A stretch of DNA of 64,000 bases from Rhodospirillaceae bacterium (GTDB taxonomy: Bacteria > Pseudomonadota > Alphaproteobacteria > SHVZ01), in NCBI GenBank assembly GCA_016792585.1, contig JAEULB010000026.1, forward strand, positions 1-64,000. The letters are read 5' to 3'. Shown here piece by piece: positions 15,745 through 19,181 of this stretch (positions within the stretch are counted from its first letter, which is position 1; each line of letters begins with the position of its first letter). Under the pieces are notes generated by a model. That model saw only the letters and a program-made list of their open reading frames with translations, made no database searches and was not told the origin of the DNA. The position numbers were made by a program, and so were the translations under genes.

Positions 15745-16895
15745 TGGCCGGGCTCGACCGCTGCTTCAACGTCGACGACCTGCGGCTGGCGGCGAAGCGC
15801 CGGCTGCCGCGCGGCATCTTCGAATATGTCGACCGCGGCACCGAGGGCGAGGTCTCCCTGCGCGAGAACCGTGCCGCCTTCGACCGCATCCGGATCCTGC
15901 CGCGCGTGCTCGAGGACGTCTCGGCGCGCACCACCGGGACGACGCTGTTCGGCAAAGCCCAGACGATGCCGATGGCGATCGCGCCGATGAGCCCGGCCGG
16001 ACTTTTGTGGCACGAGGGCGAGCTGGCGCTGGCCCGTGCCGCCAAGGCCGCGGGCATCCCCTACACGCTGCCGACGGAGTCGATGACCGCGATCGAGAAG
16101 ATCGCCGAGGTCGGCGGCACGCAATGGTTCCAGCTCTATCTCTGGAACCATCGCCCGCACTCCTATGCGCTGCTCGACCGCGTCATCGATCTCGGATTCG
16201 AGGCGCTGCTGGTCACGGTCGACACCGCGACGATGCCCAATCGCGAGTTCAACAGCCGGAACGGCTTCGCGATGCCGATACGGCCGTCGCTCCGCGCCGG
16301 CTGGGACGTGGCGATGCACCCCGGCTGGCTGTTCGGCACGCTCGCGCGCTACGTGCTGACCTCCGGCCTGCCGGCCGCGGTCAACCATCCGGAGGGCTAT
16401 CGCGAGGCGATCTTCCGAAGCCCTCCCGATGACGCGACCGGCATCGACCGGCGGACGACCTGGGACGACATCAGGATGCTCCGGAAGATGTGGCCGCGCA
16501 CGCTGCTGGTGAAAGGCATCCTGCATCCCGACGACGCCAGGAAGGCGATCGAGGCCGGCGCCGACGGCGTGGTCGTGTCCAATCACGGCGGCCGCAACTT
16601 CGACTCGGCCGTCGCCTCGATCGACGCGCTGCCGGCGGTCGCCGATGCGGTCGGGACCAAGGGCACCGTCCTGCTCGACAGCGGCATCCGCCGCGGCAGC
16701 GACGTCGCCAAGGCGCTGGCGCTGGGGGCCAAGGCGGTGCTGGTCGGTCGCGCCGCGCTCTACGGCATCGCCGTCGCCGGCGAGGCCGGGGCATCTCATG
16801 CGCTCGAGATGCTGCGCGCCGAGCTCGACAAGACGATGGGCTTCGCCGGCTGCCGCGACGTGGACGCAATCGGCCGCGCCCTGGTGGCGCCTTAA
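15744..16895 (+). CDS. FMN-dependent alpha-hydroxy-acid oxidase/dehydrogenase
   Basis: A 383-residue flavoprotein of the glycolate oxidase/lactate dehydrogenase family, oxidising an (S)-2-hydroxy acid to the 2-oxo acid. The N-terminal FEYVDRGTEGEVSLREN, the FMN-contact IAPMSPAG, the lysine in LLVKGI (about 252-257) and the catalytic histidine in SNHGGRNFD (about 279-287), with DSGIRRGSDVAKALALGA binding phosphate, are all intact. Substrate is unknown. Translation is coupled to the small barrel gene upstream. Its TAA stop lies in a TTAA that also borders a receiver-domain remnant on the other strand. Confidence 0.92.
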   Translation: MAGLDRCFNVDDLRLAAKRRLPRGIFEYVDRGTEGEVSLRENRAAFDRIRILPRVLEDVSARTTGTTLFGKAQTMPMAIAPMSPAGLLWHEGELALARAAKAAGIPYTLPTESMTAIEKIAEVGGTQWFQLYLWNHRPHSYALLDRVIDLGFEALLVTVDTATMPNREFNSRNGFAMPIRPSLRAGWDVAMHPGWLFGTLARYVLTSGLPAAVNHPEGYREAIFRSPPDDATGIDRRTTWDDIRMLRKMWPRTLLVKGILHPDDARKAIEAGADGVVVSNHGGRNFDSAVASIDALPAVADAVGTKGTVLLDSGIRRGSDVAKALALGAKAVLVGRAALYGIAVAGEAGASHALEMLRAELDKTMGFAGCRDVDAIGRALVAP

Positions 16896-16980
16896 GCCGG
16901 AGCAGCGCCGCGACCTTGTCGCGCAGCCGGGCCGCGGTGAACGGCCTTCTCAGGGAGTCGTTGACACGCAGGTCATCGCC
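16892..16980 (-). pseudogene. Remnant of a receiver (REC) domain, C-terminal end only
   Basis: Read on the minus strand from about 16980, a stretch without a start codon encodes NDSLRRPFTAARLRDKVAALLR, which matches the last strand and helix of a REC domain; compare LAKPFTAERLIETVDKILA in the neighbouring intact receiver. The conserved Lys is replaced by Arg. There is no room for the rest of a domain because the intact receiver gene ends at 16973. A one-base shift would place its end on the TTAA shared with the oxidase stop. I infer a decayed duplicate. Confidence 0.5.
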
Positions 16981-17422
16981 GCGAGCCCGTCGTCGTGCTC
17001 GGCGGCAGCGCGGTCCTTCTTGCCGGAGCGGCGTCGTCGCCGGTCGAGGCCGGCCGGGCCAGGATCTTGTCCACCGTTTCGATCAGGCGCTCGGCCGTGA
17101 ACGGCTTGGCGAGCGCGGCGTCGGCGCCGAGCTGCGTCGCAAGCTGCAGGAAGTCCGGATAAGGCGGGCGGCCGCCGCCGGAGATCACCATTATCCTGAC
17201 TGCCGGATCGTGCGTGCGGATCGCCTTCATCACCTCGAAGCCGTCCATCTCCGGCATGAACAGGTCGGTGATGACGAGATCTAGCTTTCCCTTGGGACCG
17301 AGCAGCGCCGTCGCGTCGATCCCGTTCTCGGCTGCCAGCGCCGTGTGCCCCGCGCGCCGCAGCGCCGCGTCGATGACGGTGCGCAGGGGTCGGTCACCCT
17401 CGATGATGAGGATCGTCGCCAC
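16973..17422 (-). CDS. Stand-alone receiver-domain response regulator
   Basis: A 149-residue single REC domain with a 25-residue Ala/Pro/Thr-rich tail. Acidic residues Glu and Asp in ILIIEGDRPLR, phosphoacceptor Asp in VITDLFMPEMDG (about 52) and Lys in LAKPFT are present. The first acidic position is Glu-Gly-Asp rather than Asp-Asp, a tolerated variation. GTG at 17420-17422 is preceded by GGAGG with five bases between; the frame extends to 17479 but without a ribosome site. No kinase neighbour. Together with the receivers at 3817 and 60109 it forms a set of orphan response regulators. Confidence 0.87.
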   Translation of the reverse strand: MATILIIEGDRPLRTVIDAALRRAGHTALAAENGIDATALLGPKGKLDLVITDLFMPEMDGFEVMKAIRTHDPAVRIMVISGGGRPPYPDFLQLATQLGADAALAKPFTAERLIETVDKILARPASTGDDAAPARRTALPPSTTTGSRR

Positions 17423-17483
17423 ACCATCCTCCGCCTTGGCTGCCAGGTCCGTGCCCGGCGTCCACGCATGCTTGTACACTTAT

Positions 17484-17499
17484 GAGACCGGTGGGTCTC
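17484..17499. promoter_or_regulatory. TetR-type operator-like palindrome, copy 1
   Basis: GAGACC-ggtg-GGTCTC, a perfect 6-bp inverted repeat with a 4-bp spacer, about 60 bases upstream of the receiver gene start at 17422. The half-site GACC/GGTC with this spacing resembles operators of several TetR-family repressors. A second copy of the same architecture lies at 17839-17854. Function is inferred from symmetry and context only. Confidence 0.55.
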
Positions 17500-17521
17500 C
17501 ATCAATATGGCGGCTCGCCGG

Positions 17522-17830
17522 CTAGCTCCCGCCGTCCCGGCCCCAGGCGGCGAGCATACGCTCCGCCGCTTCCCTGGCCCTGCCGAGGGCGTTGGCATCG
17601 CCGGCCCTGAAGGCAAGGACCGCGCCGTTCATCAGCATGCTCAACGTCTCGGCCAATCGCCGAGGTTCGGCGAAGCCCGCCTCCTGCGCGATCTCTTCGA
17701 TGAACGAAACGCCGTGCGACGTAAAAGGCTGCGGCTCGGTGCCGTCGTTCCGCCGGAAGCACGCGTCGAGGGCATCGAAGATCGCGAGAAGGCTGTGCAG
17801 CGGAGGCCCGGGAAAGTGAGGGACCCGTCC
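17522..17830 (-). pseudogene. Truncated TetR-family regulator, C-terminal domain only
   Basis: The minus strand encodes a continuous stretch ending at a TAG (17522-17524) with segments PPLHSLLAIFDALDACF, FIEEIAQEAGFAEPRRLAE and AREAAERMLAAWGRDGGS. These align with the C-terminal half of the intact TetR encoded just upstream (PRERLLGMFDLHHEWF, FIEGLVKETGLKGASELAA, ARQAAAILLASW), with about 30 residues missing in the middle. No ATG, GTG or TTG in frame and no helix-turn-helix sequence precede it; a TAG closes the frame near 17860, beside a leftover AAGGAG. I conclude it is a decayed tandem copy. Confidence 0.65.
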
Positions 17831-17838
17831 CGAATTAC

Positions 17839-17854
17839 GAGACCGACCAGTCTC
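17839..17854. promoter_or_regulatory. TetR-type operator-like palindrome, copy 2
   Basis: GAGACC-gacc-AGTCTC, inverted repeat matching at five of six positions with the same 4-bp spacer as the copy at 17484-17499. On the minus strand it sits directly before the TetR remnant and directly after the intact tetR gene, next to an orphan AAGGAG, so it probably was the operator of the lost repressor gene. Confidence 0.55.
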
Positions 17855-17881
17855 CTTCTATAGTCCGTTCCGCCTTTGTCT

Positions 17882-18502
17882 TCAAGACGCCCGGGGTGCT
17901 CGCCGGTCCCAGGATGCCAGCAGTATCGCGGCCGCCTGCCTGGCGGTGCGGGCCGCCTCGCGATTTCCCTGCGAGGCGGCGACGATGGCGCCTTTCAGCA
18001 GCATGTGCCAGCTGGCCGCGAGCTCGGACGCGCCCTTGAGTCCCGTCTCCTTCACCAAGCCTTCGATGAACTGCCGGACGGCGGCCATGTGCCGCGCGGC
18101 GGCGCGACGGATCTCAGGCGAATGACCGGTCTCGAGCAGGGTCTTGATGAACGGGCAGCCGTCGAAGCGGCGCTGCTGGAACCACTCGTGGTGCAGGTCG
18201 AACATGCCGAGCAGGCGCTCGCGCGGCTCGGCATAGCGGCGAAGCACTTCGCGCTTCAGCCACTCGTCGGTCCAGCGCCGGCCGTGCTCGTCGAGGAAGG
18301 CGAGCGCGAGATCGTCCTTCGCGCCGAAGTTCCGATAGAACGTCATGCGCGCGATGTCGGCGCCGGCGATGATCGCGTCGATGCCGGTGGCGCGGATCCC
18401 GTTCTTGAGGAAGAGGTCGTAGGCGGTGCGCATGATGCGGTCGCGGGCCTGGGCCGGTCGGCCTCGCCGCTTTCCCGTCTGCGCGGGCGATGGAGACGTC
18501 AT
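17882..18502 (-). CDS. TetR/AcrR family transcriptional regulator
   Basis: A 206-residue repressor. The basic leader TGKRRGRP is followed by a TetR_N helix-turn-helix (about 20-66; IMRTAYDLFLKNGIRATGID, then IARMTFYRNFGAKDDL) and an all-helical ligand domain. A Cys lies in RFDGCPF. Ligand and targets are unknown; the divergent VOC protein gene 260 bases away is a possible target. The ATG at 18500-18502 fits the family N-terminus; the ribosome site is poor. Its C-terminal half is paralogous to the truncated copy immediately downstream. Confidence 0.9.
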   Translation of the reverse strand: MTSPSPAQTGKRRGRPAQARDRIMRTAYDLFLKNGIRATGIDAIIAGADIARMTFYRNFGAKDDLALAFLDEHGRRWTDEWLKREVLRRYAEPRERLLGMFDLHHEWFQQRRFDGCPFIKTLLETGHSPEIRRAAARHMAAVRQFIEGLVKETGLKGASELAASWHMLLKGAIVAASQGNREAARTARQAAAILLASWDRRAPRAS

Positions 18503-18567
18503 GGGCGAAGGAAACCTGCTGGATTGCCTGCCCGGACCCTAAGCCCTGAGGTGCTCTAAGGCGCTGA

Positions 18568-18598
18568 ACAAATTGCAATAAACCGTTTGAATTGTAAC
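18568..18598. promoter_or_regulatory. AT-rich tract between tetR and VOC gene
   Basis: Within the 262-base divergent intergenic region this stretch is conspicuously AT-rich in an otherwise GC-rich window and contains ACAAATT and, 15 bases on, AATTGT, an imperfect inverted repeat. A promoter or operator for one or both flanking genes is likely, but no clear -35/-10 pair can be fixed. The rest of the intergenic region shows nothing definite. Confidence 0.3.
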
Positions 18599-18764
18599 GC
18601 GCTGCGAAGCCTTGCGACGGGCCGGGCGACCCGGACCCGACCGAAACCGCCGGTTTTGCGTGCTTCTCGCGAATGGTTTGCGGCAGGCAGTCGCGATCCC
18701 GCGGTTACAGATAGTTTCATCCTCCCACCGGAGCGTAAGCTGCTCGATCGACTTCAGGTGAGCC

Positions 18765-19181
18765 ATGTCCACGCCGATCAGGCCGCGCGAGATCGACCAT
18801 GTCGTGCTCCGGGTCCGCGATCCCGAGCGCATGCGGCGCTTCTACTGCGAGGTGCTCGGCTGCACGGTCGAGCGCGTGCAGGCGGGCATCGGTCTGGTCC
18901 AGCTTCGCGCCGGGCGCTCGCTGATCGACCTGGTCGATGTCGCGGGCCAGCTCGGCCGCATGGGCGGGGCCGCGCCGGGCAGGGAGGGCCGCAACATGGA
19001 CCACGTCTGCCTGCGCGTGGAGCCGTTCGACGCGGCGGCGATCGTCGCGTTCCTGTGCCAGCAGGGCATCGATCCGGGCGAGGTGGCGCCGCGCTTCGGT
19101 GCCGGGGGCTCGGGCCCGTCGCTCTATCTCGCCGATCCGGAAGGCAACACGGTCGAGCTCAAGGGACCGCCCGCGGCTTAA
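18765..19181 (+). CDS. VOC (glyoxalase/dioxygenase fold) family protein
   Basis: A 138-residue VOC-superfamily protein with two beta-alpha-beta-beta-beta units. Putative metal ligands are His12 (REIDHVVLRV), a second His in MDHVCLRV (about 79) and Glu in GNTVELKG (about 132), the usual glyoxalase I-like pattern, so metal-dependent lyase, isomerase or dioxygenase activity is possible. AGGTGA lies before the ATG. It is divergent from the tetR gene and convergent with a second VOC gene; their TAA stops share the four bases TTAA at 19178-19181. Confidence 0.87.
   Translation: MSTPIRPREIDHVVLRVRDPERMRRFYCEVLGCTVERVQAGIGLVQLRAGRSLIDLVDVAGQLGRMGGAAPGREGRNMDHVCLRVEPFDAAAIVAFLCQQGIDPGEVAPRFGAGGSGPSLYLADPEGNTVELKGPPAA

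Follow-up and report, generated by a model that had tools for sequence, protein, structure and literature searches.

A TetR-like remnant without a DNA-binding domain lies between two candidate TetR operators in a Rhodospirillaceae bacterium

Genes and palindromes at the locus

The window is the whole stretch of DNA that was analysed, 64,000 nucleotides (64 kb) from a Rhodospirillaceae bacterium whose genome is a draft of 236 contigs and 5.09 Mb with 88.8% completeness. Within the window, a block of 1.87 kb (16896-18764) lies between a gene for an FMN-dependent hydroxy-acid dehydrogenase and a glyoxalase-like gene. The block holds a receiver gene, the remnant of a TetR paralogue and an intact tetR gene, all read from the minus strand, as well as two palindromes termed op1 and op2.

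The intact tetR gene (17882-18502, minus strand) encodes a TetR-family repressor of 206 aa. Both domains of the TetR/AcrR family were found. The HTH domain TetR_N scored 37.9 bits (Pfam cut-off 24), and the C-terminal ligand/dimer domain was matched by TetR_C_13 and TetR_C_13_2 with 28.8 and 28.5 bits, respectively (cut-offs 27). With 32 bits against a curated cut-off of 247, the protein is not an AcuR equivalog (NF051457). A scan of the contigs of the genome with the intact TetR returned one distant match.

The receiver gene (16973-17422, minus strand) encodes a single-domain response-regulator receiver protein (Response_reg, 73.8 bits) and is a possible target of op1. It reads EG (IIEGDRP) in place of the usual acidic pair, if this position is, as we assume from the residue roles, the site of that pair. 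Judged from the sequence, the EG may impair phosphorylation. Adjoining the receiver gene, a minus-strand frame at 16891-17010 reads RRPFTAARLRDKVAALLR, which by eye resembles the final helix of another receiver domain and could be taken for its stump. A Pfam scan of 16891-17010 found nothing.

The palindromes have no strand and were found exactly where the first-pass annotation had placed them. op1, GAGACC-N4-GGTCTC (GAGACCGGTGGGTCTC), occupies 17484-17499, 22 bp downstream of the remnant stop codon and 61 bp upstream of the GTG of the receiver gene. op2, GAGACC-N4-AGTCTC (GAGACCGACCAGTCTC), occupies 17839-17854, 27 bp downstream of the stop codon of the intact tetR. Both are nearly perfect palindromes still. 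Singly, such sites are not rare; 3 matches with up to 2 mismatches were found in the 64 kb window, where 5.67 are expected. With up to 1 mismatch the whole 5.09 Mb genome contains 14 places, against 4 for a reversed control. Two of the 14, op1 and op2, adjoin a TetR gene and are separated by 355 bp. The exact core AGAC-N6-GTCT occurs twice in the window, as op1 and op2 themselves. The sole other exact GAGACC-N4-GGTCTC of the genome, G000:C134:49991, lies inside an open reading frame, presumably DUF692-like, and was taken as a chance occurrence rather than a regulon member.

The remnant between op1 and op2

The remnant (17522-17839, minus strand) is an open frame of 105 codons (17839-17525) followed by TAG. 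A TetR profile of 193 positions, built from 41 TetR sequences including the intact TetR, matched it in a six-frame search with an E value of 2.1e-16. This frame alone was matched, the others giving 0.5 or worse. The match covers profile positions 74-102 and 134-192. The HTH is missing, and so is an inner segment of about 30 positions (103-133), whose start in the alignment is close to the GC(P/L)F motif. In TetR proteins this segment contributes to the ligand pocket. Its loss is absent from the first-pass account. No HTH piece or further TetR piece was found by profile search in the six frames of 17401-17910. In Pfam the remnant reached TetR_C_31 below threshold (19.3 bits, cut-off 27.4), so that its homology to a TetR C-terminal domain is given by our own profile, while an HTH domain of the TetR/AcrR family is lacking. 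Against the C-terminus of the intact TetR it shows 38% identity over 58 residues (E 7.4e-5).

There is no ATG, GTG or TTG in the remnant frame before codon 62 of 105. In frame, TTG first appears at codon 62 and again at codon 66, followed by ATG at codon 68, and the start codon with a ribosome-binding site that marks a functional protein-coding gene was not found. Codon composition was compared with that of the intact tetR (0.43 bits per codon) and of the best frame upstream of tetR (-0.62). The first 21 codons of the remnant are non-coding in composition (-0.60), and four later stretches score 0.13 to 0.61, weakly coding from about 17776 downwards. This break in composition points to a junction near 17776.

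The first-pass annotation had read AAGGAG (17852-17857, minus strand) as the place where translation once began. This part of its account was given up. None of ATG, GTG or TTG follows in the 20 bases after the motif (17857-17852, minus strand), three of its bases are shared with op2, and the relative G005 has AAAGGAG at the same place, likewise without a start codon. As a leftover ribosome-binding site it is unconvincing. By eye, TTGAAG-17-TATAGA can be read beside op2 at 17885-17857, but a promoter scan of 17380-18780 gave none there and nothing at op1 or op2, and the reading carries no weight.

That the frame is a truncated TetR paralogue without an HTH and related to the intact TetR was borne out by the profile search and by a tree that places it near the subfamily of the intact TetR. 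Among 385 genomes of the class it matched, at an E value of 1e-6 and besides itself, one full-length TetR, and a phylum-wide search added a single new match. The idea that the two tetR genes arose by a recent tandem duplication was rejected, given identity of only 38% over 58 residues and flanks of op1 and op2 that are weakly alike (12/24 bases, a value equalled by 2.9% of random pairs).

An operator class and its probable reader

The core AGAC-N6-GTCT was surveyed around 69 distinct full-length TetR genes, 68 including the intact TetR and, in addition, E. coli nemR; the frame-broken copy of G005 was left out. An exact site was found within 300 bp upstream of 15/69 genes, where 0.22 are expected from mononucleotide shuffles. 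The control palindrome CAGA-N6-TCTG gave 3/69. Inside the genes, a 300-nt stretch contained the exact site in 0/69, and within 300 bp downstream it was found in 2/69, the window itself and G007:C41. With one mismatch, 32/69 genes had a site upstream and 5/69 inside. In an earlier survey of 42 loci the site had been found upstream in 9, inside in 0 and downstream in 2.

Two known systems have this core. The AcuR operator of Rhodobacter sphaeroides is TAATAGAC-n6-GTCTATTA and is supported by mutation (PMC3017554). AcuR is a TetR-family protein whose operator has the core of op1 and op2 and overlaps the promoter. The outer bases differ, the AcuR operator having TAATAGAC where op1 and op2 have GAGAC, and acuR lies directly behind its own operator, a placement that the intact tetR does not share. 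In the E. coli nemR promoter, AGACCGACTGGTCT starts 29 bp ahead of the gene; it was taken from a longer stretch, since the upstream part is cut off in the surveyed locus. This sequence shares 12/14 bases with op2, although the NemR protein is distant from the intact TetR. PMC13178969 describes self-repression of nemR from an operator in its own promoter, while the intact tetR has no exact site within 300 bp upstream. Because of the enrichment upstream of tetR genes, the site in the nemR promoter and the AcuR operator, op1 and op2, both exact in core half-sites and spacing, are very probably TetR operators of the AcuR/NemR type. The first-pass assignment of the palindromes to TetR operators is thus supported by comparison. 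A literature search for the palindrome string gave no match.

The same survey showed an upstream operator shared by many TetR genes (L060, L065, L067, L078, L080, L081, L082, L119, L123, L126, L128 and others), often with TGTCT on one side, for example AGACAGGTCTGTCT. Many of these genes are alphaproteobacterial and encode proteins of the TGID..VAKMTLY type. This shared alphaproteobacterial operator could define regulons. The TetR gene at G007:C8:45018 (L021) has two such sites, AGACTATTTCGTCT at -94 and AGACGGACCGGTCT at -16.

The surroundings of the block were compared in six genus and family relatives. In G002 and G005 the dehydrogenase and glyoxalase-like counterparts overlap by 4 bp (ATGA and GTGA), and gene order is otherwise common with the window. 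Identity to the window is 78% (G002) and 72% (G005) for the dehydrogenase and 82% in both for the glyoxalase-like gene. Only the left side of the block position could be compared in G001, where the dehydrogenase adjoins the second glyoxalase-like gene, in G003 and G004, where other genes stand at that place, and in G006, where the dehydrogenase and glyoxalase-like genes are 28 kb apart. A full tandem tetR, which had been suggested as a check in close relatives, did not appear; 0/6 relatives have a TetR match beside the dehydrogenase gene. Among the matches listed, none of the six has a receiver gene there either. The simplest history, judging from these comparisons, would be that the lineage of the window gained about 1.87 kb (16896-18764), though in a draft genome a misassembly at the block may also be considered. 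A mobile element was rejected, as the 90 bp end stretches share only one 8-mer and a DNA search of the own genome with the block returned, besides itself, only receiver and TetR relatives among the 40/440 candidates scored.

G005 carries the closest orthologue of the intact TetR (G005:C26:18934-19682), split over two frames in the assembly. It is found at a different locus and shows 59% and 49% identity in two pieces. Just downstream of its stop codon is a counterpart of op2, GAGACCGGTCAGTATC, which differs in one base of a half-site (GTAT instead of GTCT). Homology between the 110 nt that follow the intact tetR and the region behind the G005 orthologue extends over about 100 bp including op2, with a score of 52 reached by 0/2000 shuffles (best 32). 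In a test over a wider span 0/500 shuffles reached 52 (best 50). For the part beyond the operator alone, the narrow test gave a score of 29, reached by 3/2000 shuffles, and in the wide test the best match fell elsewhere and was not significant (40/500 shuffles as good). The homology stops at the LL codons, the point from which the stump is clearly TetR-like. The junction of the stump may therefore be older than the split of the window and G005 loci, although this chain of reasoning is thin. No TetR stump was found behind the G005 orthologue by profile search, and no minus-strand gene was recognised by eye downstream of the op2 copy. Since it is conserved behind the stop codon of the orthologue, op2 most likely belongs with the intact TetR.

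Our preferred reading, to which we give about an even chance, is that an acquired block has been worn by deletions, that the stump is a pseudogene, and that the intact TetR reads both AcuR/NemR-type operators and controls what remains. The intact tetR, op2, the stump left from the C-terminal part of a related second tetR, op1 and the receiver gene would have arrived as a regulatory fragment on the minus strand, which was then eroded by deletions. Having lost its start, HTH and inner segment, the stump would make no DNA-binding protein. The intact TetR, as a dimer, would be the most likely present reader of op1 and op2. It would block transcripts that begin at op2 and run across the stump, and those from op1 that enter the receiver gene, until released by a ligand. 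From the arrangement of the locus we infer the acquisition, the binding by the intact TetR, the repression and the effect on the receiver gene, and control of the receiver gene through op1 appears plausible. The first-pass annotation had proposed both sites as present targets of the intact TetR. For op2 the conservation in G005 favours this; on the other side, neither op1 nor op2 lies upstream of the intact tetR. The altered half-site base of the G005 copy, the broken tetR frame there, the lack of a recognisable gene downstream of that copy and the empty promoter scan also speak against the preferred reading.

This placement allows another history, which we consider possible but rather unlikely, in which the operators were those of the lost TetR, op2 as its autoregulatory site and op1 as a target site, and are now orphan relics without repression. 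op2 precedes the stump and op1 precedes the receiver gene, as such a history would have it. No exact site was found within 300 bp upstream in the subfamily of the intact TetR (the window, G083:C4, G751:C57 and the broken G005:C26), and the 15 genes with an exact upstream site are all outside this subfamily. One-mismatch sites, which are not rare, occur in the subfamily at about 125 bp ahead of the G751 tetR, and also before a short frame in G083. However, op2 and its surroundings are conserved behind the tetR orthologue in G005, where the profile search found no stump, and both sites in the window are still nearly perfect palindromes.

A second frame without an HTH in G083

The best full-length match to the intact TetR outside its own genome and genus, in a search of 385 genomes, was the G083:C4 TetR (39%), from another family of the same class. 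Directly upstream of this full-length TetR of the same subfamily, and on the same strand, is a second TetR-like frame without an HTH (G083:C4:66175-66522, L114:6176-6523, minus strand). Counted from an ATG where the domains meet, it has 116 codons, and it covers profile positions 70-190; the open frame itself is longer, with 177 codons. Compared with the full-length neighbour in G083, the inner segment is shortened by 14-15 residues in the G083 short form and by 19 in the window remnant. The sequence AGAA-N6-GTCT, one mismatch away from the core, stops 16 bp short of the ATG.

Neighbours without an HTH were sought beside 70 TetR genes and were found for 2/4 of the subfamily and 0/66 of the others. 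The subfamily was defined after the fact, and without the window as the discovery case the count is 1/3 against 0/66. At least 1 kb was available on both sides at 64/69 loci, and the HTH-less flags at G005:C26 come from a single broken gene seen as two halves. A clade with support 0.83 in the tree unites the two G005 pieces with the full-length proteins of the window, G083 and G751. The G083 short form falls inside that clade and the window remnant just outside (0.86). The two are not grouped together, a weak result given such short sequences. Two independent truncations are the simpler reading.

These observations bear on whether the short frame encodes, or encoded until not long ago, a functional HTH-less partner that dimerises with the full-length TetR and holds it off DNA. 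The precedent is CerM/CerN of Cereibacter sphaeroides, in which an HTH-less LuxR homologue, CerN, is described as keeping CerM off DNA (PMC11655674). That system pairs a full regulator with its own HTH-less homologue, as here, but it belongs to the LuxR and not the TetR family, CerN is described there as acting with an autoinducer, and the window remnant has no usual start codon. Among the papers listed in a literature search for truncated or HTH-less TetR proteins were CerM/CerN and one on BirA, but no TetR case.

By analogy with CerN a partner role is conceivable but unlikely. The G083 frame has an ATG, a shortened inner segment, a near-match operator ahead of it and a full-length TetR behind it, its kind is confined to the subfamily in the neighbour counts, and the later part of the window remnant keeps a coding composition. 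Still, the window copy has no usual start before codon 62. In G083 the ATG is one choice of several in a frame that stays open upstream to 177 codons, and no Shine-Dalgarno was seen by eye. The two short forms stand apart in the tree, G751 and G005 have no short form, and at an E value of 0.001 no further one was found in 142 other genomes around G083 or in plasmids. The first-pass annotation, which held the window frame to be a decayed gene, had allowed that the same short form with a conserved start in relatives would make it a real small protein. In G083 a similar frame does exist next to a TetR from this subfamily, and it has an ATG, but the window copy has no such start. The G083 copy counts against our preferred reading of a pseudogene, because chance decay does not readily predict it. 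A broader proposal would be a small class of HTH-less, inner-shortened TetR proteins that stand beside full-length TetRs of one alphaproteobacterial subfamily and pair them off DNA. The window would then be a member that has lost its start codon, and G083 one that retains it behind a near-match operator. We regard this as unlikely.

That the palindromes are weak terminators or chance hairpins behind two tetR genes, and not operators, is very unlikely: each follows a tetR stop codon at a distance of 22-27 bp, an AGAC-N6-GTCT hairpin stands at a like distance behind the G007:C41 tetR, and the plus-strand op1 region folds better than shuffles (z -2.58, 3/200), but the hairpin responsible is not the palindrome itself, a terminator scan found none, the minus (gene) strand folds no better than shuffled sequence (z -0.41 and -0.70), and the exact AGAC-N6-GTCT core is that of a proven operator class.

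Truncated tandem paralogue pseudogenes, with an intact and a deletion-scarred copy side by side, are a familiar kind of locus; here, by contrast, the palindromes on both sides remain nearly perfect. The locus is mostly an ordinary decayed gene copy, and an example of operators outliving the regulator copy between them. The AGAC-N6-GTCT class is tied to a broad set of alphaproteobacterial TetR proteins, which is of use for regulon prediction. Should headless copies such as that of G083 in fact be produced, they would give the TetR family a natural dominant-negative partner, comparable to CerN in the LuxR family.
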